From Mytilinidion resinicola (lineage: Eukaryota > Ascomycota > Dothideomycetes > Mytilinidiales > Mytilinidiaceae), in the NCBI RefSeq assembly GCF_010093595.1, contig NW_022985444.1:112721-176720 (forward strand): a DNA stretch of 64,000 bases, in the 5' to 3' direction. The notes below the pieces were generated by a model. The model searched no databases, was not told the origin of the DNA, and saw only the letters and a program-made list of their open reading frames with translations. A program made the position numbers and the translations under genes. Positions 12,140 through 62,376 of the stretch are shown here, piece by piece; position 1 is the first letter of the stretch; every line of letters begins with the position of its first letter.

Positions 12140-14155
12140 CTACCACTTAACCTGGGAAAGAATCTCTGCATCACCGGAGTAAGCATCCTCCTTCCCGGTA
12201 GTTCGGATCATTTGTTCGTATCTGGGATCGCGCAGCTTGAAATCCACTTCAAATGGCTGAAGATGGGCCACAATGCCCGGTATGTAGCCAATTTTGGGCT
12301 CGATTGCTTTCCCGTCTGGTCCCACCGGTGAGGTCATGGTGTAAGCAGCGAGAGTTTGTGCCATGGTCACAAACACGGCACTGTCAGCGACAAGGCGTCC
12401 TGGGCAAATGCGTCGTCCCCAACCGAAAATGTTCTCGGTAGGGTCCGCTTCCGGTTGATAGCCGTCGCCTTCGAGAAATCTCTCAGGCCGAAATGTTCTT
12501 GGCTCAGGGTATGTAGTGGGGTCGTTGTTATACAGCCTGCAGGACAAAAGTCAGCCAACAGAAAATGAGACAAGGGCAGCAAACTTCCGAGCTCCTAATA
12601 CGCGGAGCGAGGAAGAGGCTTCGAACGGCAGAGGAGAAGACGTAAACACTTACCAGGCGTTAGGCATTAAAGTAGCACCTTTGGGTATAAGATAGCCCTT
12701 GTATGTGAGGTCTTCATCTGCCCTGTGAGGCAAGGCTATTGGGCCTGCCGTGTGCCAACGCATAGTCTCCTTGACCATCGCGTTTAAGTAGGGAAGTTGA
12801 TCACGATCGGCAAGGATTGGAAGACGGTCACGGCCGACGACACGGTCGATTTCCTCTTGCCCTTTGCGTTGAGCTTCAGGAAAGAGTAACATGGCAAGCA
12901 AAAATCCTTTCAGCGAAGCAACGGTCTGGATTAAGTAGAGTTAGCGGCGAGATCTGCGCAAGGGGTGGGTGAGTCGCGTATGCATACCGTGTCAGTACCA
13001 GCAATATACATCCCCATTGCAGTCCATGCCACATCGCTGTGAGACTCGTTTTCGTCAAGGAGGTCTGACGCGTAGGAAGGTACGTGCTTATTCTGTTTCT
13101 TTTGATGTATTGTGAAGGCCAATGGTTTCTTAATGATTTCCTGTACATGTCCGTCTACCTCCCGTGCGGCTTTCTTGAACCTGCCTCCGGGCAACCATTC
13201 CGGTATGTGACGCACTGTCGGACAGAATGTTTAGCATTCGCATTGCCTCCTCTACACGAGGCAGGGTACTTACTGAATGGAAGCAAATCCACCAGCCACT
13301 TTCCGGGCAGGGTGCTGTATACAAACCATTCGAGAGCAGACTCAGACAAAGAGACAAGTGGGTCGATGTCTTCAGGCAGGACGGAATAACCATAGGTGAC
13401 TTTCAGAATGAAGGCCCCCGCTTCTCTGATATATGTTCCTTCGTTAGTCGTCATCGCTTCAACGAGGATTCAAGACAAGTATGTGCTGGCACCTACCTTC
13501 GAAGATGTTCAGGGAAGTGCTTAGGGTCCTTCAGCAGCCGCAACAAAAACCTTTGGGACTCCAGTTCTTGCAATGGGTGGAATTTTGCGACCGCAGTTTT
13601 CGAACCTAGCACCTTTGCCATAGCTTTGCGATACTGCCGGAACAGCCTTCTGTCCCTTGTCAAGGCAAGTGACTGCTTCCAACCAGCACTGCAGGAGAAG
13701 TTTCATGTCAGCATATAATGGTGCTTTGCCGCCAATATCACAACAAAATGGGGGAAATACAATTCATATGCAAAGACTGATTCCGGCCGAGATGAAGTCT
13801 TTGCAGACTCTTTGTCCAGGATGTCAGTTGCATATTGCTTGTCATTGATGAGGATAAGGGTAGTGCCGAGTACGGTCAAAGAGCTGATAGGACCTTTTCA
13901 TCAAATCCCAAAGTCAGATTCTCCTCAGCCTCCGAATGAAGACACGCTCGACGAACCGTACAGCTCCCTGTGCTTTATCCACTCAAGAAAATCTACAGAT
14001 CCTTCCGGTGGAAGGTCATATAGGTTTCCCACTATCGGGAGCCCTTTTGGGCCTGGCGGTAGAGGGAGAGACTTGGGTTTGGTTTGTGATCTCCATACAA
14101 AATAAAAGCCGACAACTGCCACGGCAAGGATGGTCGTGGGCGAAATTCGATCCAT
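12140..14155 (-). CDS. Cytochrome P450 (first of three)
   Basis: Seven exons on the minus strand: 14155-13957, 13893-13761, 13688-13497, 13425-13274, 13214-12988, 12925-12654 and 12536-12140, giving 523 aa in frame throughout. All introns are 59-117 bp with GT-AG ends. The N-terminus (MDRISPTTILAVAVVGFYFVW) is a membrane anchor for the ER, followed by the proline hinge LPLPPGPKGLP. Other landmarks are AGTDTT on helix I, KETMR (ExxR), PERFLEG, and the haem-binding FGWGRRICPG near residue 429 with Cys as thiolate ligand. The N-terminal style 'PPGPKGLPIVGNL' resembles the fungal O-methylsterigmatocystin-oxidoreductase-like group, whose substrates vary widely. It is divergently transcribed from the FAD enzyme at 14911 across a 755-bp shared promoter containing CGGATAA. 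Likely role: hydroxylation of the pathway substrate; the position attacked is unknown. Confidence 0.93.
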
Positions 14156-14910
14156 GACTACTGAATCTGAGAGTGGATTATGGGTTGCTGACCGAGAAGG
14201 AGTGCTTTCGCAGCCAGATAGCACTTATGTAAATGCGATGTGATATGGACTGTTGACCCGGGGGTAATCTAGGGGAGCGGGGCCTCCGAATTTGTCGGTT
14301 ATCGCTCTGGCTTCAACACCAAATGCTCGCCATCCACGCAGATCCTTCCTTCATACTATTGAAATCCTGGGGTTTCTACGTTCCGAGGTGTCAGATTCAG
14401 GTGGGAGAGTTCGGCAAATCCCAACACCATGGCGCGGAGTTGAATTAATATTACACTTATGCGAACCACCACCGTCTTTGGGCCGGGAGTCCAAAAAGCG
14501 GGAAATTATTTTCAATCAGATTCCAGCTTTGTACCCACGCACAGATCTTCGTAGCTTTCGCCGGCTCGGCAGTCTCTTCTACCCGGACCTCCTAGTACGG
14601 ATAATCACTGTTCACTCATGAACTTTCGCTTATACTCAGATAATGTGATATCTAGGTTTACCAGAGGATGGGTAAATGCGGGGAAAGAGTGGATCATTCT
14701 TCCAACCAAGTCCCACGCGATCTCTATCTACTCGGCATCAACCGCACCACCAGCTCGGGCAGTCTCGCCTCCAGTCTTGCCTAGCCAGACGCTACTACCT
14801 GTCCTTGCAGTAGGTTGCTCTGCTTCTGCTTCCTACGCTGGGCCGAATAACTACGACGAACAGCTTCAATACACATATACAGGAGAGCTACCAGATCTCG
14901 GAGTGGCACC
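14156..14910. promoter_or_regulatory. Bidirectional promoter between P450 and FAD enzyme, with CGGATAA
   Basis: This 755-bp gap separates the divergent genes at 14155 (-) and 14911 (+). CGGATAA lies at 14598-14604 on the plus strand. The role is inferred from recurrence of the motif upstream of other cluster genes. Confidence 0.4.
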
Positions 14911-16353
14911 ATGACTTTGACACCACGACGACGAGTGTTGGTGATTGGTAGTGGCGGCGCTGGCGTGGCAGCATCACTAGAAGCCAGCCGTCAGGGCGCC
15001 GAGGTGATCCTGCTTGAATCAAGAGACCAGCTTGGCGGCGCGACGTCCATGTCAGCGGGGATAATATTTGCAGGGGGAACTGACACGCAGAAGAAGGCAG
15101 GAGTCCAGGACACCAAGGAGGAACTCCTTGCATATTATGCGGCTATCTGCCAATGGACGGTCAGCCCGAAACTTCTGGAGACAATGGTAGACGGCTGCGC
15201 TGATCTTATTCCGTGGCTGGAGGACCTGGGCGTAATATTCAGACCCGAAGATCTCTACATCGCCGGCATGGAGAAGAACCCAAGAGGTCACAAGCCCAGT
15301 GGGGACACGGGTGGGAGAGGTCCGGCTGGAGGTGCCGCGATCATCAACGCCATTGTGACTGCCTTTGATGAACAAAAAGTGCAAGTGCACACAAACACCA
15401 GGATCACCAGCATTACGAGCAGTACTGGTGGTGGAACCAAAGTTACCTCAGAAGACGGGCGGGAATTCCACGGGGACTCAGTTGTCTTTGCATCGGGGGG
15501 TTTTGGCGCGAGCATCGAGAAGCTGGCTCGGTATTATCCAGACGCCGTCAAACATGAGGGCTGGACTTGGTATATCGGACCAGAGTCGAATCAAGGCGAT
15601 GCTATCGACATGGCTCTTTCGGTAGGAGGGACGGTGGTCAACGAAAACAGCGGAGGCCTCAACGTCACACCCAATTTTATCCAGGATATCGACCTGTACA
15701 TGCCTCCGTGGCTGCTATATCTCAACATACATGGGCGACGGTTCATCAACGAGCTGTCTCCTTATACTATTGCTGGGCCCACCCTCGTGGCACAGCCAAA
15801 ATCCAGGTGTTGGGGAATCTTCGATACTCGAGCTCTCACCTATGCCACCGACCACCCTCTCGACCCAGATCCATACGGTCTCGGATTCAAAATGCGTTCG
15901 AATTGGGAAGCGGAGACTCTCCACAAAGAAGTCGCAAGTGGACGCATCATCAAGGCTGATTCCCTGTCTGAATTGGCTCGCCTGACCGGAATGCCTGTCG
16001 AGAGCGTGGAGCATACGATTTGGAAGTGGAACCAGGATGTTGTCCACGGAAAAGATCCCGAGTTTGGGAAGCAGTCGTCCGAAATGATGCCACTCGATCA
16101 AGCGCCCTTCTACGCTGCTGATGTGCGCCCGCACGCGGTGGGAATCACTTACACAGGGCTGGAGGTTGACGAGGAGGCACGCCTGCTTGATCAATTCGGT
16201 CGGCCTATCCCTCACTTCTATGCTGCTGGTGAAGCTGTTGGTGGCCTGGAAAAGTCAATCTACCCTGGAGGGGGCTATTCGATCGGTGCAGCTCTCTTGT
16301 TTGGCAGAATTGCTGGTAAAAACGCAGCATCTGAGGTCAAGGCATCACCTTAA
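14911..16353 (+). CDS. FAD-dependent dehydrogenase, KstD/fumarate-reductase type (480 aa)
   Basis: Single exon from the ATG at 14911. The N-terminal Rossmann segment VLVIGSGGAGVAAS binds FAD, followed by GGATSMSAG. Residue ~450 starts the C-terminal FAD/substrate motif YPGGGYSIGAALLFG, typical of 3-ketosteroid-delta1-dehydrogenases and flavocytochrome-c fumarate reductases. The family removes hydrogens from the ring carbon next to a ketone, or reduces such double bonds. At 480 aa it is shorter than the 550-590 aa members at 18485, 25808 and 46445, and it lacks their long central insertion. There is no signal peptide and no clear peroxisomal tail (ends KASP). It shares a promoter with the P450 on the left and is convergent with the SDR gene at 16778. 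Exact substrate and direction of reaction are unknown. Confidence 0.88.
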   Translation: MTLTPRRRVLVIGSGGAGVAASLEASRQGAEVILLESRDQLGGATSMSAGIIFAGGTDTQKKAGVQDTKEELLAYYAAICQWTVSPKLLETMVDGCADLIPWLEDLGVIFRPEDLYIAGMEKNPRGHKPSGDTGGRGPAGGAAIINAIVTAFDEQKVQVHTNTRITSITSSTGGGTKVTSEDGREFHGDSVVFASGGFGASIEKLARYYPDAVKHEGWTWYIGPESNQGDAIDMALSVGGTVVNENSGGLNVTPNFIQDIDLYMPPWLLYLNIHGRRFINELSPYTIAGPTLVAQPKSRCWGIFDTRALTYATDHPLDPDPYGLGFKMRSNWEAETLHKEVASGRIIKADSLSELARLTGMPVESVEHTIWKWNQDVVHGKDPEFGKQSSEMMPLDQAPFYAADVRPHAVGITYTGLEVDEEARLLDQFGRPIPHFYAAGEAVGGLEKSIYPGGGYSIGAALLFGRIAGKNAASEVKASP

Positions 16354-16777: not shown

Positions 16778-17927
16778 TCACCCATCCACGACAAGATTTT
16801 GACCATTGACAAGGCTCATTTGGTTCGAGGACAACAACGCAACCGCGTCACCGATCTCCTCTGGTTTCCCTGTTCGACCTTGGCGGGCCTCGAATGACTT
16901 CCATGCCTCGAAAACCTGGGGATCTGATTTGACAATTGGCTCAGCGATCTTGGTCAAGATGAAACCTGGCGACAGCGCATTGACTCTTATTCCGTGCTGT
17001 CGAGCTTCTAACGCCGCCTTCAAGGGTCGGGGTTGGAACGTCAGTACTTTGTTTCCTCCATGAACTGTAACTAGACAAATTTACACGAAAAACAGAGGAA
17101 GTGCACTCACAGCCTTGGTAAGACCAGCAACAGCATGTTTCGATGCTGTATATATACCGGTTCCAGCCATAGCTTGAACCGAATTCACCGAGGCGCAGTT
17201 CACAATTGAACCCCTAATGGCCACGCGTCCAGCCTCCCTAGACCCGAACGATATGTATCAGTATAATGAATAAGAGGATTATCCATGAGGCTATAGATGT
17301 TTCGATCTTACCATTCGATAGGGTCTTGTTTCATCATCTGCAACAGCTGATGTTTTGTGCTAATGAAAACCCCTGTCGTGTTGACTGCCATTACTTTTTC
17401 CCACTCTTCAACAGTGATCTCCGAAACAGGTTTATGTGGGCCACCCACTCCTGCGAAGTTTCTGCGTATCAGTCAGTCACTTATCGCATTAAAACTAGGC
17501 CAGTCCCGTACGCTGTGTAGTCAATGCGTCCAAATTCAGAGACCGTTTTGGCAATGGCGCTCTCGAAGTCCTTCTCGTCTGTGACGTTGGCTCGGATGGG
17601 CAAACACTTCACCTGTTCCAGCGCCCAGTTTCCCGTAAGCAAGCTGAACAGAAGACATAACATGAATTGTATGCCGCAAAAACTTGCCTGGTTTCCATGA
17701 GATTCGACTTCCGCCTTCGCGCTTGCCATGGTTTCATCATCCTGGATATCAACGATCACAACACCTCTTGCCCCCGATTTCGCAAATGACACAGCAATTG
17801 CGAGTCCCAGGCCACGTCCGCCGCCCGTGACAAAGGCAACTCCCGGCAAAAGGGAGGATGATTTGTGTGTCGACGCCTTTGGAAACAGTCAAAACTCGAG
17901 TTGCTGCAAAGCGGAGCCACTTACCAT
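16778..17927 (-). CDS. Short-chain dehydrogenase/reductase (classical SDR)
   Basis: Six exons: 17927-17925 (the ATG alone), 17876-17688, 17612-17512, 17461-17312, 17237-17111 and 17017-16778, giving 269 aa. The first intron (48 bp, GTAAGT...AAAG) directly follows the ATG. This start was chosen because it gives MASTHKSSSLLPG before the nucleotide-binding FVTGGGRGLG. The intron after exon 2 appears to use a GC donor (CAG|GCAAGT); it is 75 bp, so its retention would keep the frame. Catalytic residues are present: NFAG, NCAS (Ser) and YTASK (YxxxK). The family oxidises alcohols or reduces ketones with NAD(P)(H). It is divergent from the FAD enzyme at 18485, which suggests joint expression and an alcohol/ketone step on the same substrate. 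Confidence 0.88.
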
Positions 17928-18484: not shown

Positions 18485-20146
18485 ATGAGTTGGGATAGCG
18501 AATATGATATCGTCTGTGTTGGGTCCGGGGTTGGGGGTCTGTCGGCGGCCTTGACAGGCGCACAGGAGGGTGCAAGTGTCCTTGTACTGGATAAGTTTCA
18601 CCTCATTGGCGGGGTGTCGGCGTTGTCTTCGGGGCAGCTTTGGCCAGGCCCAACCCATCTATCCAAGGCAGAGGGCATTGACGACAATGACAGCGACGCA
18701 CAAGCCTACATCAACCATCTGTCACAAGGCTTTGCTGATCCCGACTTACGGAAGTCCTATCTCGCCCAAAGTCGCGGGGCGATCCAGTACTTCACCGACA
18801 CCATTGGCTTGCAGCTGCAAGTGATCAAAGACCTGCCCGATTACTACTACCCAGCGGTGAAAGGCTCTGCTCCTCAGGGGCGTTTTCTTGAAATCAAACC
18901 CTTCCCGGCGAGAAGACTTCTCGGTGACTGGGCCGGCAAGATTTTGACATCTCCATATGGCGACGGTTTCAGCTACGTGACCGCAAACGAATTTGTGTCA
19001 ATGCAGTTGAAAGGCGGAGAACATGTCGGCACATGCCTCCAGCGCCATGTTGAAGCGGACGAACGGACCTCCGGCGCAGGCCTGGCAGCTGCACAGGTAT
19101 ATGCCGCTCTACAGCGTGGAGTCAAAATCCAACCATCAACCGAAGTTGTTGACCTTGTTGTCGACGAGGGGAGGATTACAGGAGTGATCGCACGCGACTC
19201 CTCCTCCTCCTCCTCCTCCTCCACACAACGCATTCGGGCCCGACGCGGTGTCCTCCTCGCGACTGGGGGCTACGATCTCCAGCCCGACATGGTACGCAGC
19301 TTCGACAGCCTCATCAACGCCGGCAACATGACAATACCTACCATCACAGGAGATCATCTTACCTTGGCAGCCAAAGTAGGCGCCGTTCCATATTCGGCTC
19401 ATCCTTCAGCCTTGACTGCTATCTTTGTCGGATACCAAATTCCTGGTGAGCTTATCTACGGCAAGCCAACCTGGCGATTGCTTCTCCCTGGAGCGCCACA
19501 CTCTATCATTGTTAACTCGCGGGGCCATCGCTTTGCCAATGATTCCTTTTACCCCGATGTCTCGGCCAAGGCCGGACGCTACGATGGACAGGAACAGGGC
19601 TTAGTGAACTGGCCGGCATGGCTTGTCTTCGACCAAGACTTTGTGGAAAAGTACAACCTGCTACCAGCCTACCCGGGCCAACCCTTACCCCAGGGGATTG
19701 CTGTGAGCTCAGATACGCTGCGCGGTCTGGCCGAAGTGACCGGGATTGATGCCGACGGGCTCGCGAGTACAGCAGAACGATTCAACGGCTTTTGCAAGAC
19801 CGGCGTGGATGAAGATTTTGGACGTGGATCTCTACCATGGGGCACGATCCTGACTGGCGATTACAGCCTCCCCCATCCTAGTTTCGCCAAGATTGTGAAG
19901 GCGCCATTCTATGCAATCAAGCTTCATCGTGTTACTGTGGGTGTCCCAACCGCGGGTTTGCCCATCAACGGCGACGGGAGTGTCATCAGTGCGGCTGGTC
20001 ATGTTGTCCCCGGCCTTTACGCAACCGGTAATTCTGCAGCATATCGCGACTGGGGAGCTGGATATAATAGTGGGGTTGCGAATATGCGCGGCATGCTTTA
20101 CGGTTACAAAGCCTCTCTGCATATGGTAAGAGGAGCAGGTCCGTAG
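18485..20146 (+). CDS. FAD-dependent dehydrogenase, KstD-like superfamily, DWG-type (553 aa)
   Basis: The ATG at 18485 (MSWDSEYDIVCVGSG) places the FAD-binding GSGVGG right at the N-terminus, as in the family. The longer open frame upstream (from 18194) has no family similarity. The protein has VLVLDKFHLIGGVSALSSG, a tract of about ten Ser near residue 240 encoded by a TCC microsatellite, and RGHRFANDSF. The C-terminus reads DWGAGYNSGVANMRGMLYG where canonical 3-ketosteroid dehydrogenases have YPGGG. It is clearly paralogous to the gene at 46445 (shared GRFLE.KPFP, LTSPYG..FSYVT and LQRHV..DER blocks) and more distant from those at 14911 and 25808. Likely an FAD-linked desaturase or enone reductase on a cyclic ketone. 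The altered C-terminal motif means KstD activity should not be assumed. Confidence 0.88.
   Translation: MSWDSEYDIVCVGSGVGGLSAALTGAQEGASVLVLDKFHLIGGVSALSSGQLWPGPTHLSKAEGIDDNDSDAQAYINHLSQGFADPDLRKSYLAQSRGAIQYFTDTIGLQLQVIKDLPDYYYPAVKGSAPQGRFLEIKPFPARRLLGDWAGKILTSPYGDGFSYVTANEFVSMQLKGGEHVGTCLQRHVEADERTSGAGLAAAQVYAALQRGVKIQPSTEVVDLVVDEGRITGVIARDSSSSSSSSTQRIRARRGVLLATGGYDLQPDMVRSFDSLINAGNMTIPTITGDHLTLAAKVGAVPYSAHPSALTAIFVGYQIPGELIYGKPTWRLLLPGAPHSIIVNSRGHRFANDSFYPDVSAKAGRYDGQEQGLVNWPAWLVFDQDFVEKYNLLPAYPGQPLPQGIAVSSDTLRGLAEVTGIDADGLASTAERFNGFCKTGVDEDFGRGSLPWGTILTGDYSLPHPSFAKIVKAPFYAIKLHRVTVGVPTAGLPINGDGSVISAAGHVVPGLYATGNSAAYRDWGAGYNSGVANMRGMLYGYKASLHMVRGAGP
19199..19223 (+). repeat. TCC trinucleotide microsatellite encoding poly-Ser
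   Basis: An uninterrupted run of TCC codons in the FAD enzyme gene encodes the Ser tract at about residues 240-249. The paralogue at 46445 has a Thr/Asn/Gly-rich insert at the same point, so this is a variable surface loop. Confidence 0.85.
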
Positions 20147-20951: not shown

Positions 20952-22291
20952 ATGCCGACTCCTGTGCCATTCAAAATCGCAGTATCCGAAGAAAAGCTTC
21001 GTATATTGCATCAGAAACTTTCCCTGACTGAATGGCCGGATGAAGTACCACTCAAGGAACCTCGGAGTCGCGGCGCGCCTCTCCAGGAGGTCAAAACTCT
21101 CGTTGATTACTGGTTGCATTCCTTCGATTGGCGGGCACAAGAGAGCAAACTCAACCAGTTCCCTCAATTCACCACCGACATCGACGTGGATGGATTCGGC
21201 ACATATAACGTCCATTTCATCCATCAAAGAAGCGACGTCCCGAATGCGATTCCATTGATCTTCCTTCATGGCTGGCCTGGCAGTTTTATCGAAGTCACCA
21301 AAATTCTGCCCGAGTTGGTCCAAGGGGGTCAGAATTTCCCAGCCTTTCACGTCGTGGCCCCCAGCCTCATTGACTATGGTTTCTCCCAGGGGAATACAAA
21401 GGTGAGTAGCTTTTACGTCTGGCATCCTTTTCAAGGATTGCAATCTAAGATCACTCAAGGAAGGATTCAACCTCGATCAACACGCAGAAGCGTACCACAA
21501 GCTGATGCAAAGTCTTGGATACTCTGAATATGGTAAGAGACAGTCTAGCCTGTCAAGTCTCCTTGCGCTCTGCTAACGAAGAGTACGCAACAGTGGCTCA
21601 AGGCGGCGACATTGGCAATTTCTTGACGAGGTTTCTCGCTCTAAAATATCCCGAATCATGCAAAGCTCATCATACAAACATGCCGACGCCGAATCCACCG
21701 GATCCATCCAAGCACACAGACCTCATTGCCAAGATAGAGGCTGAAGGCGGCCTGAGCGAGGAAGACCAATATCGGTTGGCATCCACCCAGGCACATCATG
21801 CCAGTGGAATGGCGTACGCGATGGAGCACATGACAAGGCCACAAACCATCGGATACAGTCTGGCTGACAGCCCGGTAGGCTTGCTCTCATGGATCTACGA
21901 GAAACTGGTGGACTGGACAGCAGGGTATCCGTGGACCGCCGATGAAGTCTTGACCTGGGTCTCGATCTATCGATTCTCACGGCCAGGGTCTGCTGCGCCT
22001 CAACGCATCTACTATGAAATGATGCATCGGGAGTCAATGACAGTCGTCGACGTGACGGCACAGTATATTGATGTGCCTTTGGGGACCTCGCACTTCAAGA
22101 AAGACCTGTTGCGCTTCCCAACACGCTGGGATGCTACTCTTGGTCCAATTGCTTTTCAGGCGGAGCATGACAAGGGTGGTCATTTTGCAGCATGGGAGTG
22201 CCCGCAAGACCTGGTCAAGGATCTGCGTGACATGTTTGGCAAAGAGAGTCCGATTCACGGCTGCGTGGCTGGGCAGAGTGGCTTCACATAA
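20952..22291 (+). CDS. Epoxide hydrolase, EHN-domain alpha/beta-hydrolase type (1)
   Basis: Three exons: 20952-21401, 21460-21532 and 21594-22291, giving 406 aa. The N-terminal EHN region (MPTPVPFKIAVSEEKLRIL... to DWRAQE and INQFPQF-like sequence) precedes an alpha/beta-hydrolase core. HGWPGS near residue 106 is the oxyanion-hole motif, QGGDIG carries the nucleophilic Asp (~179), and KGGHFAAWE carries the catalytic His (~370). Family members hydrolyse epoxides through an aspartyl-ester intermediate, and relatives of this fold also open lactones. It is homologous over its full length to the gene at 54976-56433. In the cluster it could open an epoxide made by a P450. Cytosolic or microsomal; there is no transmembrane segment. 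Confidence 0.9.
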
Positions 22292-23073: not shown

Positions 23074-25056
23074 ATGACCACCGACACAGCACCGTTAGCA
23101 GCAGGGGAACCTGACGTGAAGGTCCTTGCGCGCAAGTACGCCGAAGAGCGCGACAAACGCTATGCAGCACGTGCAGAACACCAATATCTTTCTCTGCGAG
23201 AGATTCGGGATGCAGAATTTGCGCAAGACCCCTTCGTGGACTATGAGCACGCCCGAGCCAACGAGACCGAGATCCACGACGGAGAATTTCGGCAGTGTGT
23301 CATCATCGGCGCCGGTCACAACGGGCTTCTCTTCGCAGTTCGCCTGATTGAAGCTGGAATCAGCGTGGACAATATTCTCCTGATCGACAATGCCAGCGGG
23401 TATGGAGGAGTGTGGTATTGGAATCGCTATCCCGGCCTGATGTGCGATGTGGAAAGCTACATCTATCTACCGCTTCTCGAGGAGACCGGCTTTGTTCCCA
23501 AACACAGATACTCGTACGGAGAAGAGATCCGGACCAATACTGAATCGATTGCCAAAAAGTATAACCTCAAGGCTCTTTTCACCACGACTGCTACACGAAT
23601 GGACTGGGACGATGACCGTGTCGAATGGACGACCCAGGTGACACGTGATCTCGGCCAGGAGGGCAAGGTCGACATCAAGATCAGGTCTCAGTTCCTGTTC
23701 ATCGCAGCTGGTCCCTTGACCGTACCAAAAATGCCCGACGTGCCCGGCATGGACGAGTACCTGGAGGCTGGCAAGCACATCTTCCACAGCGCTCGCTGGG
23801 ATTTTGAGCTGACGGGGGGCACGCAACAGAATCCTGAAATGACCAAGTTGAGAGATAAAAAGGTCGCCATTGTTGGCACTGGTGCAACCGGTGTCCAAGT
23901 GATTCCTGAAGTGGCCAAGTACGCCGAGAAGCTTTACGTGTGTCAACGGACGCCGTCTTACGTCGGAACCAGAGGCCAAAAAGAGACTGATCCAGACGAC
24001 TGGAAGCGTGTGGCACGGGGTAAAGGATGGCAAGCAGCTCGAGCTGACAACTTCAATCTGCTGATTTCGAATGATCCGGAGCCCGAAAACCTTGTCGGCG
24101 ATGGTTGGACGGAAACTGGAGCAAATGCCGCTTTTCAGGGCGGCAAAGGGAAATATCCCATCGTCACGCCAGAGGTGGTAGCGGATCATGTCGCGTATTT
24201 TATGGAGATGGATGTCGAACAAGCGAACAACAAGCGAGCCCTAATCGACAAAGTAGTTGCGAACAAAACCGTGGCCGAGCAGCTGAAACCCTGGTATGCT
24301 GGGTGGTGTAAGCGGCCCATCTTCAACGACGACTATCTTCCTACGTTTACAAGGCCCAACGTCCAGCTCGTGGACCTTGACGGCAAGAGCATCGAAAAAT
24401 TCACGAGCAAAGGAATCGTCGCAAATGGAATCGAATACGACGTTGACATCATCGTTCTTGCCACGGGCTTCGAGCTTCTGCCCAACGCCAGCGCATCTAC
24501 ACGGGCAAACGCTCCGATTCGAGGTCGGAATGGCAGACTTCTAGATGACAAGTGGAATTCGTACGAATATGACACTCTACACGGCTGCATGAGCCACGAC
24601 TTCCCCAACCTGTTTTTCCAGGGCGTCTTTGGGCAAGCAACATCTTCAAACTTGACCAGGCTGTACAGCTTTCAGGCGGAGCATTGTGCGTTTGTGGTGC
24701 AGAAGGCCCTTTCATCCGCACCAAAAGGCGAAATGGCCATTGTCGAAACGCCCATAGCCGCCGAAGAGGAATGGGGCCAGGAGACCTCCAAGCGGGCACT
24801 GTTCTTCAGCACATTGCCGCTCTGTACCCCGGGGTACTTTACGGGAGACGCACAGGTAAGGACTCCGGGAACCCCGGAGGAAATCGCGTTCATGGCGAAA
24901 CGGATTCCATGGCCCGGCGGTGTTACCGATTATGGCAGAATCCTCGGTCGATGGAGGGACGCTGGAGAGTGGAAAACGGTGGTTTCGGCCAAGTCGGTCG
25001 CGCAGACGAACGGCGTCGATAAGCTCACGTCTGCTGTTCTTGCCGAGAACTTGTGA
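23074..25056 (+). CDS. Baeyer-Villiger monooxygenase 1 (660 aa)
   Basis: Single-exon flavoprotein monooxygenase. The first Rossmann motif is GAGHNG (~residue 79), followed by the family's GGVWYWNRYPG and the CDVESYIYLPLL block. The second (NADPH) Rossmann motif is GTGATG (~267), and there is a C-terminal ATGFE. The Baeyer-Villiger fingerprint (FxGxxxHxxxW[P/D]) is recognisable as AGKHIFHSARWD, with the Gly one residue further from the first His than usual. The ~75-residue N-terminal extension before the FAD motif is typical of the large BVMO group that includes CPDMO/steroid monooxygenase-type enzymes. The reaction is insertion of oxygen next to a ketone to give an ester or lactone, using FAD, NADPH and O2. 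A lactone product would suit the neighbouring hydrolases. Confidence 0.92.
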   Translation: MTTDTAPLAAGEPDVKVLARKYAEERDKRYAARAEHQYLSLREIRDAEFAQDPFVDYEHARANETEIHDGEFRQCVIIGAGHNGLLFAVRLIEAGISVDNILLIDNASGYGGVWYWNRYPGLMCDVESYIYLPLLEETGFVPKHRYSYGEEIRTNTESIAKKYNLKALFTTTATRMDWDDDRVEWTTQVTRDLGQEGKVDIKIRSQFLFIAAGPLTVPKMPDVPGMDEYLEAGKHIFHSARWDFELTGGTQQNPEMTKLRDKKVAIVGTGATGVQVIPEVAKYAEKLYVCQRTPSYVGTRGQKETDPDDWKRVARGKGWQAARADNFNLLISNDPEPENLVGDGWTETGANAAFQGGKGKYPIVTPEVVADHVAYFMEMDVEQANNKRALIDKVVANKTVAEQLKPWYAGWCKRPIFNDDYLPTFTRPNVQLVDLDGKSIEKFTSKGIVANGIEYDVDIIVLATGFELLPNASASTRANAPIRGRNGRLLDDKWNSYEYDTLHGCMSHDFPNLFFQGVFGQATSSNLTRLYSFQAEHCAFVVQKALSSAPKGEMAIVETPIAAEEEWGQETSKRALFFSTLPLCTPGYFTGDAQVRTPGTPEEIAFMAKRIPWPGGVTDYGRILGRWRDAGEWKTVVSAKSVAQTNGVDKLTSAVLAENL

Positions 25057-39961: not shown

Positions 39962-40484
39962 TTTGTGTCTTCGTTCAGCTCGCTCTATGTAACGAAATGG
40001 AAGCCTGATTGATTTTGGCCAGTTGATGAGATCCTGAAGTGAAGGGATTGGGGAGTTATGTTTACTTCTATCGCATCCGGATCAACTTTGAAATTGACCG
40101 ACCATCGGCCCTCGGGAAATTACCAATGGCTGTAAAAAGGTAGGCTACTCCAGCAGGAGTGCCCTGTAATGCTCCCTGCCGTCCTCTTCGAGTGGGAACT
40201 CTACGGTCTAAGTTTTGGAGATCTACATAGCACCCCACGTAGATCCCCCAGGATCGAGCTAGAATCAAGCGGGAGCAGTCGGGGCCCCGTGGGGAACACC
40301 ATGACCCAGGTCCGCGCTTCACCCGGGAAAACGGTATCAGATTAGCCGACAAGACACCTTTCGTTGCTGTAAGCGAGAAGCAGTGAAGCAGTGGACGCAA
40401 TCGCCGGCCATACTCATCCCTTCACTAGAGCAGTAAGTGCAGGGGCGCCCACGCAGTCTCTAAACAGCAACAAGCGAGAAGCTG
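39962..40484. other. Upstream region of the MFS gene
   Basis: No gene. A CCGGATC at 40076-40082 is only partly like the shared CGGATAA motif. Confidence 0.4.
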
Positions 40485-51295: not shown

Positions 51296-52293
51296 TTATA
51301 GGAAGTGTGCAATGTTTGAAATCTTGCCAATCTTCTCGAACTGAACCTCGACCAACGAGCCATCGGGAACGCCATGGGTCTTGCCTTTGTCAGTGAACCA
51401 TTGGCCACCTCCACAAGTACCTGTGAAAACGACGGTGCCTGGTTGAACAGTGGTCCCTTGAATGAGAGACGATTGTTAGTCTCTACGGTAGCTCGTAGGA
51501 TCAAGGGAACAATGAGAGTCACATACCTGTAGCCATGGCGGCAACCACCTCGGCAACATTGAATGTCATATTCTTGGTATTGTCCTGCTGAACGACCTTG
51601 CCATCCACGATGGTTTTCAATTCGATGGCGGGTGGAACTCCAAGAACGTCAGAATTCACCAAAACCGGTCCGATTGGCGTGAACTCGTCGAACCCTTTGG
51701 ACCAGATGTAGTTCATGGCACCGAGTTTGGGCCCTGGACGAGGAGACAGATCGTTTCCTACGCTATATCCGATGATCTGCTTCCCTGCTTCCTCAACCGT
51801 GACATCTTTGAAAGGCTCGTATCCCACCAGAATGATCAGTTCGCCCTCATAGTCGAGCGAGTCTTGCTGGACTGGGTGTACGTTGATTTTCGCGTATGGA
51901 CCAGCGAGACAGGTTGGTGGCCGCCAGAAGAGATATGGGCGGGGAGGTGGGAGATTCTGCAAGCACACGCATCAACAACAACAAATATTTCAATTGCAAA
52001 GACACGAGGAAACAACGGACCTGATATCCAACTTCTGTGGCCTCTTTGACGTGGTCATTATAGTTCAGCCCGGTTTGTACCACGATCGGAACATCTGCCG
52101 CGGGTGGTAATAAGTCCTTCTTGTCCACGGTTACAGTCTCTCCGGTCAACTTGATGTTGCGTTTGACAGGATTTCCAGTGGCGATCTTCACTTTGATCTT
52201 GTCATCTAATTCACCATTCTCTTTTGGGTCGACAAGTTGTGCGAAAGTAGGGGAACCTTTGTGGTTGAATCGTACGAGATGAGTCCACGACAT
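51296..52293 (-). CDS. Fumarylacetoacetate-hydrolase (FAH) family protein
   Basis: Three exons: 52293-52021, 51956-51527 and 51456-51296, giving 287 aa. The N-terminal domain starts MSWTHLVRFNHKGSPTF. The catalytic half has NYNDHVKEA, 'YLFWRPPTCLAGPYAKI', DYEGELIILVGYE (metal-binding Glu residues), GYSVGNDLSPRPG, WSKGFDEFTPIGPVL, and a C-terminal GTVVFTGTCGG. Family members use Mg or Ca to hydrolyse C-C bonds, decarboxylate or tautomerise 3-oxo/2-hydroxy-dienoate acids from aromatic meta-cleavage. Here the extradiol dioxygenase gene lies immediately upstream on the same strand (gap ~685 bp). The pair looks like a ring-cleavage and product-hydrolysis module. Confidence 0.9.
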
Positions 52294-52977: not shown

Positions 52978-53832
52978 TCAAGCCCAGAGATACGAGGAGC
53001 TGACGGTATTGAACATTTCCCACTCTCCCAGTCTCTTGCCGGGATCAGAGCCGCCGGCTGCAGCAGTAACCAAAAATGGCGTGAAATGTTCATCATTACC
53101 AGGAGGTTGCACCTCGTCAGCCTCTGGAAAAGACTTCCACTTGCTCATCCCGTCCAACCGCTTCTTGAGATCCTTCACCGTTGCCACCTCCTCCAGTTTG
53201 TCTTCAAATGCTCGATTGACACCGACTGGTGGGACCTTTGCGTCAGGGACGCCCATGATAGGCTCAATGATCTTTTTGAAGTTGTGGTACGTGTGCCCAC
53301 TTCCGAGAATCGCCCAGCCTTCGTCTCGGAAGGGCTCCAACGCCTTGCCCAGGGCGAAAGACTGCTCGATGACCTTGTCTCCCTCTGGAATTGAGACCTG
53401 AACGACTGGAAGGTCGGCCTGTGGGCGAAGGAGCATTAGTGGTGTCCATACACCGTGATCCCAACCCCGTACGTCGTCCAGCTCAGCTTCCAAGCCTTGT
53501 CGCTCCGCGCTCTCCTTGATCCGACGCGCAAGTTCCGGGTCTCCAGGCGCATCGTAGACAATTTCCCAAGCTTCCTTTGGCAGTGGGTTTCCGGGTACAG
53601 GGAAATAATCACAGTAAATTGGCGGCTTTGCGGCCGATGAGATGTATGTCTTGTCGGCCGTCCAGTGTGCGGTCACAACAATCACCCCTTTGGACCCATC
53701 CAGCACCCAAGCAGTCTCCTTGCAGAGATCAATCAAAGGCTGCTGGGAAGGTGCCCGCAGAATTGCCAATGGACCTGCTCCATGGGAGACAAAGAAGCAA
53801 GGAGCACGTTTCGGTCCCTCTTTGATGGCCAT
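52978..53832 (-). CDS. LigB-type extradiol ring-cleavage dioxygenase (4,5-DOPA-dioxygenase-like)
   Basis: Single exon, 284 aa. Motifs in order: FFVSHGAG (first metal His), VVTAHWTA, GWDHGVWTPL, VQVSIPEG and GSGHTYHNF, matching the LigB-superfamily DODA-like proteins that bind non-haem Fe(II) or Zn through conserved His residues. The usual length is 260-290 aa. The family opens catechol-type rings beside the two hydroxyls, or related non-aromatic diols. It forms a same-strand pair with the FAH-family gene downstream, suggesting that the pathway produces a catechol-like or enolised diol intermediate. The protein is cytosolic. No defect is seen. Confidence 0.9.
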   Translation of the reverse strand: MAIKEGPKRAPCFFVSHGAGPLAILRAPSQQPLIDLCKETAWVLDGSKGVIVVTAHWTADKTYISSAAKPPIYCDYFPVPGNPLPKEAWEIVYDAPGDPELARRIKESAERQGLEAELDDVRGWDHGVWTPLMLLRPQADLPVVQVSIPEGDKVIEQSFALGKALEPFRDEGWAILGSGHTYHNFKKIIEPIMGVPDAKVPPVGVNRAFEDKLEEVATVKDLKKRLDGMSKWKSFPEADEVQPPGNDEHFTPFLVTAAAGGSDPGKRLGEWEMFNTVSSSYLWA

Positions 53833-54975: not shown

Positions 54976-56433
54976 TCATGGTGCCCAGACACTTGCTACA
55001 AAATCTTCAATGTCCCGAAGAAAGGCATCAGGCGTTTCTAATGCGGCGAAGTGGCCTCCTTCACTATGCGTCCTGCTCCATGCCAGATTCCCAGTCGATC
55101 GAACCCACGAAATCGGGGTGGGTGTGATCTCGTAAGGGAAGGATGAGAAGCCCAGGGGCTTATGGATGAAGTACTCGGGCAAGTCATGGTATGGAGACCG
55201 CAACACGTCGCGGTATGGGTATAGACAGCGGGCGATGGTCTTGGTAAACCAGTAGACTGAGGCCGCATCGAGTATCACGGAGAGTGGGGGATTCTGGTGT
55301 GACCAAGCCAAGTACTTCTCGCCTATCCTGTTGTCGGGAAAGCGATCAGTAGCTTGCTATAAAGATGGTTGTTGAATCAGACTTACCAACTCAGCAATGC
55401 AACGGGATTTGACGATAGTACGAAGCCAATTGTGGCCGGCCTGGTGGCGTGCTCGAGGGCGTAGGCGAATTCAGTCATGGAGGACAGCCTGGATTGTTCG
55501 AGTGCGGCCTCTTCGATCTTACTCAGTGCTTCGCTCGTGGCATCGGCATTCTGTGGCTTTTGCATGCCACAGAAGTTCACTAGTGTTTCCAAAGTGCTGA
55601 TTCAGGGATGGTAAATCTATGCGAAACGTCTCGAAACTTACAGTGGACTGCCTTGCATTCTTCAAACTTTGATCCGAGGATCCTCGCCAGGTAACTCCCA
55701 ATATCACCGCCTTGGGCAATGTAACCGTCTTGAAAGCCCAGACCAACCATCATAGAGTTGATGACCCAAGCAACGTCAGCAACCGTTGTATTTGACTTGG
55801 TCGAAGGCCCTGTCGAAAAACAGTAGCCAACTATGCTGGGAACAATTATGTGGTAAGGCAGAGTCGATGGGGTGTAGCGGTTCCTGACAATGTCGAGACA
55901 CGGCAGGAATTCCATGAAACTCCCTAACAAGCAGTCAGCGTCTCGTTTGATGGGTATTTGTCAGAATCAGTATCGGGCGTAGTAATACCAGGCCAACCAT
56001 GTAGCATCACGATCGGGATGGCGTCTGGCTTCTCTGAGAAAAGTGCAACAATGTGAATGCTATAATCCGTTCCCACCTCATCGGTCACCGAAACCTGGTA
56101 ATTGGGGAACGAGTTTATGCGTTTCTCGGTCTGACGCCTACACAGAATTTTTTTTAGAGGTTTGGGCCTTTTTTGCTTTTGCAGTTTTCATTAATCTCAC
56201 CAGTCGTATTGAGTTTTCCATGAGTGGAGAGCATTGGAAAGCCATGCATGAGAAATCCCTACACTTTCATCTTCTTTCAGATTCTCATACGTCTCGGGCG
56301 CGAGTTCAGCGAGGTCCAGGTGTCGATGGAGACGTGCAACCTGCGAATCAGGGATCGACACTTGAAACGGTGTTGGCTTTGACGAAGATCGTGGGGGGAT
56401 CTTGGCGTATTCCATGGTGTAGCGATGGATCAT
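54976..56433 (-). CDS. Epoxide hydrolase, EHN-domain alpha/beta-hydrolase type (2)
   Basis: Five exons: 56433-56201, 56137-55989, 55923-55642, 55579-55387 and 55327-54976, giving 402 aa. An ATG six codons later (56415) is an alternative start. The EHN region (KPTPFQVSIPDSQVARLHRHLDL) precedes MLHGWPGS (oxyanion hole), AQGGDIGSYLAR (nucleophile Asp) and SEGGHFAALE (catalytic His). It is homologous to the gene at 20952 but divergent, with more introns, so not a recent copy. Likely substrates are epoxides or lactones formed by the oxygenases of the block. It is divergent from the P450 at 56707 across only 273 bp, which implies co-expression and possibly consecutive epoxidation and hydrolysis. 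Confidence 0.9.
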
Positions 56434-56706: not shown

Positions 56707-58397
56707 ATGGCAGATTTGCCAGCAGTGTTCACTATTTCGAATATAGCCTTTGGGGTAAATGGTCGGGTCACTCAGTGTCACATACCCAAACTGAGATATC
56801 TAAATAGGTCCTGTTGTACTACTTCGCAAGGACAGTGCACCGACTCTTCTTGCATCCACTATCCAAAGCACCTGGACCTTGGTACCTGGCCATTTCAACG
56901 ATACCCGGTACATACTACATATGTATCAGCGGGCGCTGGAACCTGGTGAATCGCGAACTGCATGAGCGTTATGGACCAGTTGTCCGAGTTGGGCCACACA
57001 AGCTTAGTGTAAGGGGAGAGATTGGTTGGAAGGCAATCTACGGTCATAAATCGCGCGATGCGGAAGAATGGTCAAAGTGGCCAGACTTCTTTCCGAATGT
57101 CCCCAAGGATATCGTCACTGCACCCACGGCTGAACATCGCCGGCTGAGGAAGGAAATCATTCGCGCGTTCTCAGACAAGGCGATCCAGGAGCAGCAGTCG
57201 ATATTCCATGACTACGCAAAGATTCTGATCCTGCAATGGAAGAAGCGAGATCAGACCGTCATTGACGTTGCCAAGTGGTTCAATTTCTACACATTCGACA
57301 CATTTGGCGATCTCGCCTTTGGAGAGTCATTTGGGTCGCTTGAGGGGGGCGAGTCTCATCCGTGGGTCAATTTGATCTTTGACAGTATCAAGATCAACAA
57401 AATGTCGGGCTTCCTGGAGGAGTTTCCATTGATCAAACAACTTGCCATTCTGCTTACACCCGCGGAGATCAAGCGACGCGCCACCGAGCACTTTGAGCTC
57501 AGTGAGCAGAAAATCAGACAGAGGCTAGCACGGGGTGCAAACGACCGAAAAGACTTCATATCTTACATTTGGAAATCCGATGGAACAGGTTTGACCCAGC
57601 AGGAACTTGAGCGAAATGCTTCCACATTAATTGTCGCCGGCAGTGAGACCACGGCGACGACTTTATCTGGTCTGATAGACTATCTCCTCAAGAATCCTGA
57701 GAAGTATGCTCGACTCACGCACGAGGTTCGCTCAACCTTCAAAGCGGGCGACGACGAAGTGACCCTGCTGGACACTGCGAATGTTCCCTACGTCCACGCA
57801 TGCATCGAGGAGACTTTGCGACTATTTCCAGCTGTGCCAGTTGGAGCCCCTCGGCAGGTGGGCGCAAGCGGAGGATCCATTGAGAATTACTATCTGCCTC
57901 CGCAGGTAAGTGTCCCTCAAGCTGAGGCTATCGCATGGTGTACGTCCGGTAGCACAATCACAAGAGTTAACACCGCACGCGTTGCTTTGCCAGACCCTAC
58001 TTGAAGTTCCCCAGTGGGCCACGCACAGAGCCAGCGTCAATTTCTGCGATCCCGACGACTTCGTTCCAGAACGATGGCTGCCGACCGACCATCCTTGGTA
58101 CGATCCTAGATATGCCAACGATAACAAAGGAGTCGTTCAGACTTTCTCATACGGACCACGTGCCTGCGTGGGAAAGACGTAGGCTCTCCACCTAATGGGC
58201 CCAGATGGATTTTGCCATGCTAACCAAGGAACAGCCTTGCTTATCACGAGATGAGATTCATCACGTCGCTCATTTTCAAAAACTTCGATTTCGAGCCCAC
58301 ACCGGAAGGGGCTGGCTGGGTAGAGAGGTGTGAGCACTATTTCTTTTGGCATAAACCACCCTTGCCAGTTAAGTTGAAGGCCGTGGCTCTGAAGTGA
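56707..58397 (+). CDS. Cytochrome P450 (third), isotrichodermin-C15-hydroxylase-like group
   Basis: Four exons: 56707-56754, 56808-57905, 57994-58178 and 58235-58397, giving 497 aa. The first exon (MADLPAVFTISNIAFG) was chosen because it splices in frame to VLLYYFARTVHRLFLHPLSKAPGPW, giving the short anchor and the HPLSKAPGP hinge typical of this P450 group. Landmarks are IVAGSETTATT (helix I), EETLR (ExxR), PERWLP and FSYGPRACVGKTLAYHEMR (haem Cys). The fungal group is often annotated as isotrichodermin C-15 hydroxylase/CYP65-like, which oxidises terpenoids and polyketides. Without intron 3 the protein would stop right after the haem motif. It pairs with the divergent epoxide hydrolase. Confidence 0.92.
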
Positions 58398-59538: not shown

Positions 59539-59782
59539 AACTGGGGGCCGTACACATTGGTACATGGTAGACGCTATCACCAAAACAAAAAGCACGGCTT
59601 CTCGAGCTTCTTTTTACGATATCTGCCTATCATACATATGCTATATGTTTCACATTCCGTATAGCAAAGCATATGTAATTGGAGGATCTCATGACGACCC
59701 TAACTCTCCCCTCTTCGGAATGCCTACTGTCCCAAACAGAGAGCTAGTTCCCTTACACTCACTTGGACTCATCTTCGCCAAA

Positions 59783-62376
59783 TTAATTGTAGCTGTGCAT
59801 TGGCATGTCCATCGGAAAATCATCAGTGATCTGAAATGCCTCGGAATTCCACATGGGCAGGCAATTTGGAAAGTCAACCTGTGAATCCAGGAACGTGGCC
59901 GGCATGGAACTCCCGAAGCCTGGTCCGAAGCCGGAAAATGAAACAGGAAAAGTGGAACCACCGGATATACCATCCTGGTTTCGTGTCAGATCAGACCATA
60001 ATAGAGGCTCCATAGCATGGCAAAGAGCAAAGAGCGTGACAGTACGTACCGGCACACCATCGTGCTGCATTCCGGACCCAATGCTTGACGGGTCCTCTGA
60101 ATCCTTTCCGGGACCTATATATGTGAGTCAGTCAATGTCCAAATCAGCCTATGCCCCAGAGGGCGTGTTAAATACCTGTCCATTTGTTTCCCTTTGAAAC
60201 AATCTGCGCTTTAGTGACAATTTCGCGGCTCAATCGCCCAAGCTCCGAAAATAGTCGACGAATTTGGCCAACGCTCCCAATATCGGGATCCTTCATCTTC
60301 GAAAAGAGACTCGCCAATGAATCAAGGAGCGCGACATCCGTCAAAGCCCGGGGAGCATTTGGGTCGTCTCGAATGCCAACGAACAAGGCCATCGACGCCA
60401 GAACAGGATAACACAATGTGCGCCTTCAGGTGAGTCAGGATGAATCGCTCACATCGGGTTATGTGGCAGATGAATGGAGAAAAACGTACCATACAAATGC
60501 CGGCATGTCCACCGCAATACCTCGACTCATACGAAGGATGGCTCGAAGGCACGAGAAGTATGTGGCCCGAGATGAAATGATCTGACTCTGAAAAGAACTG
60601 TCACTTGTCGACCGCCTCAGGGTCAGGGCAGCGAAATGAATGTTGCTCAAGCATGTGTAATACTGGAAGTGCAGAACCAGGATGTAGTGACGAAGGTAAG
60701 GGTCCGAAGTGTTGATCTCGTACTCTGGTTGGAAGTCGATATCGATGCTACCTTTCCATTCCTCAAGCTGCTGTTCCAAATCCACCATGGTCTTCACTAC
60801 CTCGTGTTCAGGTCGCTTGCGCCCGTTAGAAGTGTAGAGTTCTTGGAAGACCTTTGCTGCGATGACGGAAAGCTCCGACATGACTCGAAATAAGTTGAAC
60901 GTGCTGTGGCCGTCTTCAAGGGGGATGATTCCCAAGCCGTCCGGTGGCTCTTCGGCGGGAAGCTCGATATTCAGATTACCAGGAGTCTGGATCAAAGGTA
61001 GAGTCGAAATCATGGAATTTTCGGTGTCCAGCATGTAAGCAAACCAGAGAGCCCGATTGATCTGACGTGTGTTGACTGCGTCACATTCCGTCGTGGCTTT
61101 GCCTTGTCTGACCCCCAGAATTTGCAGAAGTCGAACGGCGCAGGAGACTAACATTGCACTGGCCTGAGGCTCCCCATTGCCTCGGGTAAAGACCGCCATA
61201 CACAACATGGCTTGTGCGCTCAGAAGATCGTTACTCCTCATCATCAACTCGGTCAACACACTGAGTGCATTGTGCATATAGCGCCATGCTTGTGCAGTTG
61301 ACTCCTGAGTCGTATCTGCCGGGTTCTGCAAGCGTATCCCGACAGCAATGACACTATGCAAGCTGGCCCACCACCCAACCCGCTTGTCTGGCTGACCAGA
61401 AAACTCCTGTTGTGCCAGACTCATGAATGATGCATAGTCGTAGAGAGGAAAGAATCTATTGTGGCAGCAGAAGAAGACCTCCACCAGCCGCAACGCCTCA
61501 TCTTTTGGCGGCAGTGACGCATGTACCGGCCCCTTCAGTCCGACAGATAAGAAGTCCAACCACTTGGGCGTGGATGGGTTCGACAGAACCTGTGCAGTGA
61601 AACCGCCCTGGAAGGCCCGTTTCTCCTCGGCCTTGTCCATGATCCATTGTACCGGTGGCGCAAATTCGGGGTCGATAGAGTCTGGCACAGAGGCGATAGT
61701 GCTTTGCGTGTCAGAGCCTGGTATATCGGGTAGATATTGGCTCGATTTGAATGGAGGTTCAGCGTCTGGGGATGGATGAGGTAGCTGAAGATCTTCTGGC
61801 ACTCCTGGGTGGCTTCCAGTGTTGTTATTTGCACCGGGGACTCCATCCGCAGATGGCGCAACTCTGATCGTAGCAGTGACTGAGTCGTTTGCCCCGTCCG
61901 CAGTGGCAGGGTCGGAACCAGCTGGCGACAGGCCCGGCGAGGGGCTTGTCCTATAGTCATCACCGTCCAACAGGCTCTCCATGCGAAGTAGTCGCTGCTC
62001 CAACCTGCTGAGATGATTCGAAATGGCGGGTATTCTAGATCGCCGTCAGACGCCGACCGAAGTAGGCTGTCATCCTCACCTTCTGGGGGGGCCTCTTTTC
62101 TTCTGTGACTCGACATAAGTACATTCGACGGTGCGATCGCTGCAGTTGCTACAGGCAGGTTGTTTGCCGTCGCATTTGATCTTCTTCGCCTGACAGGTAC
62201 AACACGCCTGTGCCTTTGTTGATTAATTGGGCTCCTTTAGGGACATGCCAATTTACCTTGGCCACTCGCTTCCGCTTGGCTCGTTGCTCCATGATCTTTG
62301 AGGGCGGAACAGGACGATGAGCTGGGACAGGCTGGGGACCAGATGGGCTATCAAAGGTCGACATGAACTGCCGCAT
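59783..62376 (-). CDS. Zn2Cys6 fungal transcription factor with fungal-specific domain
   Basis: Exons: 62376-62257, 62207-62080, 62034-60490, 60423-60176, 60114-60050 and 59974-59783 (765 aa). The last intron (75 bp, GTACGT...CCAG with CTGAC) could be retained in frame. The basic lead KIMEQRAKRKRVAK splices into the binuclear cluster, which starts ACCTCQAKKIKCDGKQPAC and continues SNCSDRTVEC (six Cys). A linker QKKRGPPRR and coiled-coil SRLEQRLLRMESLL follow. The middle holds the fungal-specific transcription-factor domain ('FFCCHNRFFPLYDY', 'MRSNDLLSAQAMLCMAVF', 'RALWFAYMLDTENSMI'). Such proteins usually activate neighbouring clusters by binding CGG-containing sites in the nucleus. CGGATAA lies about 320 bp upstream of its own ATG, which suggests autoregulation. 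Confidence 0.92.

Follow-up and report, generated by a model that had tools for sequence, protein, structure and literature searches.

What does a fungus do with some 50 kb of ring-oxidizing and ring-opening enzymes that are encoded side by side, with no backbone synthase among them? This question is raised by the block of genes at positions 12140-62376 of a 64,000-nucleotide stretch of Mytilinidion resinicola DNA (hereafter, the window; C8:112721-176720 of a 47.1-Mb assembly in 44 contigs). Fungi modify steroids and terpenoids; to our knowledge, gene sets that break steroid or terpenoid ring systems are well described only in bacteria. Our analysis indicates that the block is probably a composite fungal catabolic gene cluster, made up of two ring-opening modules, A (12.1-35.9 kb) and B (37.8-56.4 kb). 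This composite structure is the main addition to a preliminary description of the locus, which had seen in it one enzyme supercluster for dismantling polycyclic ketones.

Gene content of the block and search for a backbone synthase

Gene models were built with our own gene finder trained on the host genome, a lower-threshold pass over the gaps and frames read by eye, and the predicted window proteins were assigned to families by Pfam scans. Settings of the gene finder that yielded fused models (up to 3,987 aa) were discarded. The roughly 22 genes that had been listed are present between 12140 and 62376. They encode three cytochromes P450 (P450s), four FAD_binding_2 (KstD-superfamily) flavoenzymes, two Baeyer-Villiger monooxygenase (BVMO)-type proteins, two epoxide hydrolases, three short-chain dehydrogenases/reductases (SDRs), one crotonase, one LigB protein, one FAA_hydrolase (FAH-family) protein, two NmrA proteins, one major facilitator superfamily (MFS) transporter, one Zn2Cys6 protein and one small NTF2/SnoaL-like protein. 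The description of these genes as intact holds for the 16 of 22 whose whole models came straight from the gene finder, but intactness is less well shown than presence for the six with partial or hand-joined models (P450a at its 5′ end, P450c at its 3′ end, NmrA 2, the small protein, SDR3 and EH2). The gene that had been named SnoaL-like does exist, although its family call is weak (E 0.04 for NTF2 and 0.11 for SnoaL_4), and all four KstD-superfamily flavoenzymes are there, but only one of them, KstD26, has the canonical active site. A decayed aldehyde dehydrogenase gene at ~40467-41758 had been overlooked. Rfam yielded no match in the window at gathering thresholds.

The absence of a backbone synthase was borne out. 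A synthase gene just outside the window was looked for with six synthase/prenyltransferase families, and none had a match on C8 within 1.4 Mb of the block within the sensitivity that these searches offer. On this contig, the closest match to ketoacyl synthase is at 1.59 Mb, and the family searches for condensation, class I terpene synthase, squalene/oxidosqualene cyclase C-terminal, Trp_DMAT and UbiA domains gave no C8 match. A run of 1,070 N (64001-65070) begins directly past the last base of the window.

The clustering of the KstD-superfamily genes is not due to chance. The 47.1-Mb genome contains at least 11 PF00890 genes (14 match rows), a lower bound because 14 of 65 first-look candidates were scored, and four of them lie within a 33-kb part of the window. 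With independent placement, the chance of finding four within 33 kb is ~4e-6 for 11 genes, and 7e-3 when all 65 candidates are counted as genes. Duplication explains part of this clustering, since FAD23 and FAD35 share 54% identity. LigB-family genes number five in the genome (six match rows; seven of seven candidates scored), with one in the window and one in a second cluster on contig C12.

A second cluster and its relatives suggest two modules in the block

This second catabolic cluster is located near the start of its contig (C12:4153-44220). It encodes relatives of BVMO2 (57% identity), the FAH-family enzyme (56%) and the LigB protein (54%), a KstD-like protein that is 58% identical to FAD23 and 49% to FAD35, a small NTF2-like relative (55% over 62 aa; 41% over 175 columns by tblastn) and a predicted aldehyde dehydrogenase of 466 aa, together with more distant relatives of the MFS transporter (33%), P450b (34%) and, in two copies, P450c (33-34%). 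KstD26, BVMO1 and the crotonase have only weak superfamily matches in the C12 stretch, the outer 20 kb of which were checked through predicted proteins only. None of the six synthase/prenyltransferase families has a match at the C12 cluster. The content of the cluster defines module B, to which P450c could belong as well.

Related gene pairs are found in other fungi. In Capronia epimyces, homologues of FAD35 (A1O3_06673, 73%) and LigB (A1O3_06675, 84%) lie on one contig, a KstD-LigB pair that matches C12 better (A1O3_04159 and A1O3_04161) lies on another, and a homologue of FAD23 (82%, locus tag 00984) is found on a third. With the C12 cluster and these Capronia contigs in view, we dropped the reading of the whole block as a single pathway: the gene block was confirmed as such, but is better read as two modules. 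Of 79 non-self LigB matches, we examined 43 (at least 53% identity); 14 of these are on contigs of at least 5 kb, and at least six of the 14 are on contigs equal in size to those of KstD matches (two from Capronia, one from Talaromyces proteolyticus and three others). This count is a lower bound for the KstD-LigB pairing, because 120 of 431 KstD matches were considered. Conservation of the gene set, for which a synteny search had been suggested, thus extends to the recurring KstD-LigB pair, but nothing beyond that pair was traceable outside this genome. In Lophium mytilinum, which provides the closest named relative of the crotonase (96%), the contigs that carry the crotonase and the FAD23 homologue (92%) have the same size (2,850,822 bases) and are presumably one. 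An apparent absence of FAD35 and LigB from L. mytilinum was withdrawn, because the C12 LigB of the M. resinicola genome also failed to appear among the matches; the 90%-identity clusters to which the window's two proteins belong, with 6 and 14 members, may include the Lophium proteins.

Enzymes of module A

KstD26 (25808-27662, plus strand; Pfam 4.8e-75) is a canonical 3-ketosteroid Δ1-dehydrogenase-like protein, which matches PDB 7p18 with 270 bits. In alignments to 7p18 and 4c3x, it keeps all four active-site residues of KSTD1, which we take to be Tyr119, Tyr318, Tyr487 and Gly491. FAD22 (14911-16353, plus strand; Pfam FAD_binding_2) has Leu in place of the Tyr119 equivalent, and its best PDB matches are fumarate/urocanate reductases, followed by Δ4-(5α)-KSTD. 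The third flavoenzyme, FAD23 (18485-20146, plus strand; Pfam FAD_binding_2), is a divergent KstD-like protein, and is treated below together with FAD35.

The closest PDB entry to BVMO1 (23074-25056, plus strand) is 5mq6, with 507 bits against 177 bits for the next; we take this entry to be PockeMO. PockeMO was reported to oxidize the A and D rings of steroids (PMC7570940, as far as the available text describes), and small cyclic ketones as well (PMC6315744, likewise). Both Rossmann motifs are present in BVMO1, while the stretch AGKHIFHSARWD deviates at two positions, the Phe and the Gly, from the type I BVMO fingerprint FxGxxxHxxxW(P/D) given in the accessible part of PMC9836352. Two Novosphingobium relatives of BVMO1 retain the fingerprint. 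A BVMO1 paralogue (40%) is encoded at C7:37340-39187, about 8 kb from ketoacyl-synthase matches (C7:46911-47697), which places this type of BVMO near a polyketide synthase too.

The crotonase (31420-32250, plus strand; Pfam and PDB matches) appears to be of the β-diketone/6-oxocamphor hydrolase type. By sequence, the β-diketone hydrolase ALR4455 (215.6 bits) and 6-oxocamphor hydrolase (183.5 bits) are its best solved relatives by a wide margin, the next crotonase scoring 68.2 bits. Across 21 sequences, H126, H149, D159 and E249 do not vary; they may correspond to the His, His, Asp and Glu that we take to be the catalytic set of these hydrolases. A partial relative with two stops in the matched stretch is located at C18:439944-440423 (53% over residues 3-163).

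Bacterial and archaeal genomes, scanned by pattern for crotonase relatives, yielded six loci, all from Sphingomonadales, with flanks of differing extent. In a metagenome-assembled genome of Novosphingobium sp. Chol11, a BVMO1-like BVMO (35%) and a Rieske oxygenase come after the crotonase (50%), and further on lie a second Rieske oxygenase and a second BVMO1-like BVMO. Among the other loci, one (L029) has P450s, an SDR and SnoaL-like genes, and another (L025) has an FAD_binding_2 gene. These neighborhoods lend weak support to a catabolic setting.

P450a (12140-14120, minus strand; Pfam p450 8.7e-54) has the heme motif FGWGRRICPG, and its 5′ exons are approximate. SDR3 (16778-17927, minus strand; adh_short_C2 1.4e-54, exons hand-joined) and SDR28 (30117-30969, minus strand; Pfam 9.6e-39) are classical SDRs. 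In SDR27 (29070-30002, plus strand; adh_short 1.7e-25), YIFSR replaces YxxxK, and the protein may be catalytically altered. EH1 (20952-22291, plus strand; EHN 1.3e-38) is a microsomal-type epoxide hydrolase with PDB epoxide hydrolases as matches and a GGD motif. The two NmrA-like reductases are encoded on the minus strand at 32617-33626 (reductase 1; NAD_binding_10 and NmrA) and 34700-35950 (reductase 2; NmrA 9.1e-24, 5′ exons hand-joined). Outside the pathway, an element resembling a miniature inverted-repeat transposable element (27920-28608) has 108-nt terminal inverted repeats that are 95% complementary; each copy accounts for several of its 184 genomic match rows, and the copy at C2:661629-662285 is 98% identical.

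Enzymes of module B

BVMO2 (42446-44725, plus strand; Pfam and PDB matches) contains two Rossmann motifs, and YQGKMMHTARWD agrees with the BVMO fingerprint except for Tyr in place of Phe, which classes the protein as a type I BVMO. The extradiol dioxygenase of the LigB family (52978-53832, minus strand; Pfam 1.7e-22) is DODA-like according to its PDB matches. All 16 aligned sequences have its His 17, 56 and 126, and 15 of the 16 have His 183 and 249. The best PDB matches of the FAH-family enzyme (51296-52293, minus strand; Pfam 3.4e-46) are meta-cleavage isomerases/decarboxylases.

FAD35 (46445-48157, plus strand; assigned by Pfam) is the second divergent KstD-like flavoenzyme. Its predicted structure (mean predicted local distance difference test score 78.7) is closest to KSTDs, and then to cyclohexanone dehydrogenase. 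Since the root-mean-square deviation to these nearest folds is 6.6-7.8 Å, the model supports kinship of the fold, but not active-site detail. A common pattern unites FAD23, FAD35, the C12 protein and ten relatives: PDYYYP is retained, Pro or Ala after FY occupies the position of Tyr318, and the loop of Tyr487 has given way to a shorter one of GGGY, GAGY or GGGF.

The aldehyde dehydrogenase remnant (~40467-41758, plus strand) is spread over three frames with stops; Pfam Aldedh matches two of these frames, and five pieces of the remnant match the C12 aldehyde dehydrogenase. Repeat-induced point mutation as the cause of this decay is unsupported, as the dinucleotide indices are close to those of the intact neighbors. 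An intact trio of dioxygenase, aldehyde dehydrogenase and FAH-family enzyme is thus not present in the window, whereas all three are predicted in the C12 cluster.

Module B further contains the MFS transporter (37807-39730, minus strand; MFS_1 and TRI12), the small NTF2/SnoaL-like protein (45300-45916, minus strand), to which the C12 cluster has a related protein, and P450b (48586-50381, minus strand; Pfam 8.3e-38). The epoxide hydrolase EH2 (54976-56433, minus strand; EHN 1.3e-17, exons hand-joined) is placed in this module by position only. P450c (56707-58300, plus strand; Pfam 2.8e-56, 3′ end approximate) and the Zn2Cys6 transcription factor (59783-62376, minus strand; Fungal_trans and Zn_clus) follow.

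A candidate regulatory motif

The motif CGGRTAA occurs at 18 sites in 12140-62900, and 14 of them lie in the 10,977 bp upstream of cluster genes, versus 3 in 22-24 kb of control upstream DNA; it was discovered in the same data in which it was tested. Eleven of the upstream sites belong to module A, two to module B and one to the Zn2Cys6 gene, and the repeats upstream of cluster genes span 14598-62693. The C12 cluster has only three sites in 8,026 bp. A palindrome built from the motif, CGGGTAATTATCCG, has a single exact site in the window, at 28793. Among 125 tests of CGG-type spaced motifs, none was convincing (best p 0.006). CGGRTAA as a shared regulatory motif is suggestive only.

Comparison with known catabolic systems

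In bacterial homoprotocatechuate meta-cleavage (hpa/hpc), an extradiol dioxygenase, an aldehyde dehydrogenase and an FAH-family decarboxylase/isomerase carry out successive steps. The window resembles this system in these three families, but its dioxygenase is of another subfamily, the DODA-like LigB, and its aldehyde dehydrogenase is decayed. Aerobic steroid degradation in bacteria involves KstD, KshAB and HsaC, and the block has in common with it KstD-type Δ1-dehydrogenation, extradiol cleavage and crotonase-type ring opening. However, its dioxygenase is of the LigB type rather than the HsaC type, and BVMOs and P450s are present instead. A bacterial 9,10-seco steroid pathway within the window was rejected on the Rieske 9α-hydroxylase: no Rieske match was found among those window proteins that were scanned, a search that did not extend to other parts of the genome.

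Degradative gene clusters are a described kind in fungi, and one class of them is defined through an aromatic ring-opening dioxygenase (ARD); the text available of PMC10735191 credits the ARD-class scheme to Gluck-Thaler and Slot 2018. Like ARD-class clusters as described there, which recur in several fungi, the block has catabolic genes around a ring-opening dioxygenase; the ARD would here be the LigB protein, which stands beside FAH, P450 and KstD-like genes, and what recurs in other fungi is the KstD-LigB pair. Beyond what that description gives, the block has four KstD-superfamily enzymes, two BVMOs, a crotonase of the β-diketone-hydrolase-like kind and two epoxide hydrolases. The block thus fits the fungal degradative gene clusters, and extends them with alicyclic-ring chemistry. 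Among titles and abstract openings of the literature, most subscription journals excluded, we found no fungal cluster with this combination of enzymes.

Weighing of the catabolic interpretation and its alternatives

Several observations weigh against a catabolic cluster of two modules. FAD23 and FAD35 keep the equivalents of Tyr119 and Gly491, but Tyr318 is shifted or replaced and the Tyr487 loop is deleted; because two canonical KSTD residues are missing, desaturation of a ketone by these enzymes is a guess. The aldehyde dehydrogenase of module B is a pseudogene in the window. By Pfam, no acyl-CoA ligase, thiolase or evident lactone hydrolase is found among the 22 genes, so that a complete pathway would need enzymes from elsewhere. 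The split into modules is not clean, since the C12 KstD-like protein is nearer to FAD23 of module A than to FAD35, and gene order differs between the block and the C12 cluster. Within the flanking DNA examined, a BVMO1-like BVMO stands beside the crotonase in only one of the six bacterial loci. Finally, the apparent strength of CGGRTAA in simple tests did not survive family-wise permutation, where a word as good arose in 45 of 500 presence-based and 59 of 300 occurrence-based runs (p ~0.09-0.2). We therefore rejected it as a proven promoter motif, and co-regulation of the block is unproven.

Biosynthesis offers a different account, in which the block would tailor a terpenoid or steroid metabolite with a skeleton from a remote synthase. 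The block has three P450s, a TRI12-like MFS transporter and a Zn2Cys6 gene, all of which biosynthetic clusters commonly contain. A remote source is possible, because the genome has a single squalene/oxidosqualene-type cyclase match region on C2 and a single class I terpene synthase match region on C3. The C7 paralogue of BVMO1 neighbors ketoacyl-synthase matches. The demethoxyviridin (vid) cluster of Nodulisporium sp. is a precedent: lanosterol-derived pathways need not cluster with the cyclase, and vid was found through its P450s, the cyclase not being expected in the cluster (PMC5943271, in the part available). It resembles the block in its P450s, BVMO, dehydrogenase and MFS transporter, and its BVMO, an esterase and a dehydrogenase cleave a side chain. 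However, the same text describes vid as biosynthetic, with six P450s and two Bet v1-like proteins, and in that text nothing in vidB-vidL is named KstD, LigB or crotonase. We rejected a vid-type furanosteroid cluster, as the window has three P450s and no Bet v1 match in the Pfam scans of its proteins. Moreover, extradiol cleavage, FAH-type reactions and β-diketone hydrolysis tear skeletons down, the core of module B recurs in C12 without a match to the six synthase/prenyltransferase families, and the KstD-LigB pair recurs on other contigs. Biosynthesis thus seems quite improbable, and catabolism is the likelier of the two.

Two further explanations retain the degradative chemistry but change its purpose or its substrate. 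In detoxification, toxic compounds of bark or resin would be opened just enough to disarm them, and the MFS transporter would export the products without a gain of carbon. The TRI12 match of the transporter is in line with this, putative fungal detoxification genes are often clustered and two BVMOs of Grosmannia clavigera are implicated in limonene detoxification (PMC8120277, as far as available), and the closest named crotonase relative comes from L. mytilinum; the accessible text of PMC11514609 describes mytilinidioid fungi on bark. Ring cleavage and FAH steps exceed what disarming needs, though, and we regard detoxification as unlikely. Similarly doubtful, in our view, is the idea that the catabolized substrate is not a terpenoid or steroid but an aromatic or quinone-type compound (a polyketide, anthraquinone or xanthone). 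Both LigB and FAH belong to families of aromatic pathways, and a KstD-like protein of Sphingobium sp. AntQ-1 is 52% identical to FAD35 and 60% to FAD23; for this strain, cleavage of the central ring of 9,10-anthraquinone by a BVMO, followed by hydrolysis, has been proposed (PMC9836352, in the part available). Against this, '3-oxosteroid' is absent from the main text of that report, the most highly expressed BVMO of AntQ-1 is described there as type II, although a second, type I BVMO was also upregulated, and KstD26 and BVMO1 point to alicyclic ketones.

Proposed pathway

Catabolism by two ring-opening modules is the interpretation we favor, and the catabolic interpretation as such is likely. 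The earlier proposal of a catabolic or detoxifying cluster for an alicyclic or steroid/terpenoid ketone agrees with the lack of a synthase and with the 5mq6-like BVMO1, the crotonase, KstD26 and the FAH-family enzyme; a steroid or terpenoid substrate is plausible, judging from BVMO1 and KstD26. Gene content, active-site residues, the C12 cluster and the recurring KstD-LigB pair are direct observations; from there on, we infer the borders of the modules, the order of the reactions, the substrate (a polycyclic terpenoid- or steroid-type ketone), the regulation and the benefit for growth.

In module A, P450s and SDRs would install and oxidize oxygen functions, KstD26 would desaturate a cyclic ketone, the 5mq6-like BVMO1 would insert oxygen to give a lactone, and the crotonase would open a ring by β-diketone hydrolysis (retro-Claisen). 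In module B, BVMO2 and P450b may oxidize a ring, the KstD-like FAD35 may desaturate a cyclohexanone ring towards a phenol, and LigB may cleave the resulting catechol. The ring-fission product would then be processed by an aldehyde dehydrogenase and the FAH-family enzyme, as in homoprotocatechuate meta-cleavage; because the local gene is decayed, another locus would have to provide the aldehyde dehydrogenase step in trans, the C12 cluster being one candidate. More tentatively, we suggest that a polycyclic steroid or terpenoid nucleus could be dismantled ring by ring, with a β-diketone-cleaving module, marked by its sphingomonad-like crotonase, joined to a module that aromatizes and meta-cleaves, and with FAD23 and FAD35 as ring desaturases that form a family of their own, their KstD active site being altered. 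If the two-module catabolic reading is right, the two clusters would provide a short gene list for directly testing ring opening by a fungus, and FAD23 and FAD35 would represent a protein family with assayable chemistry.

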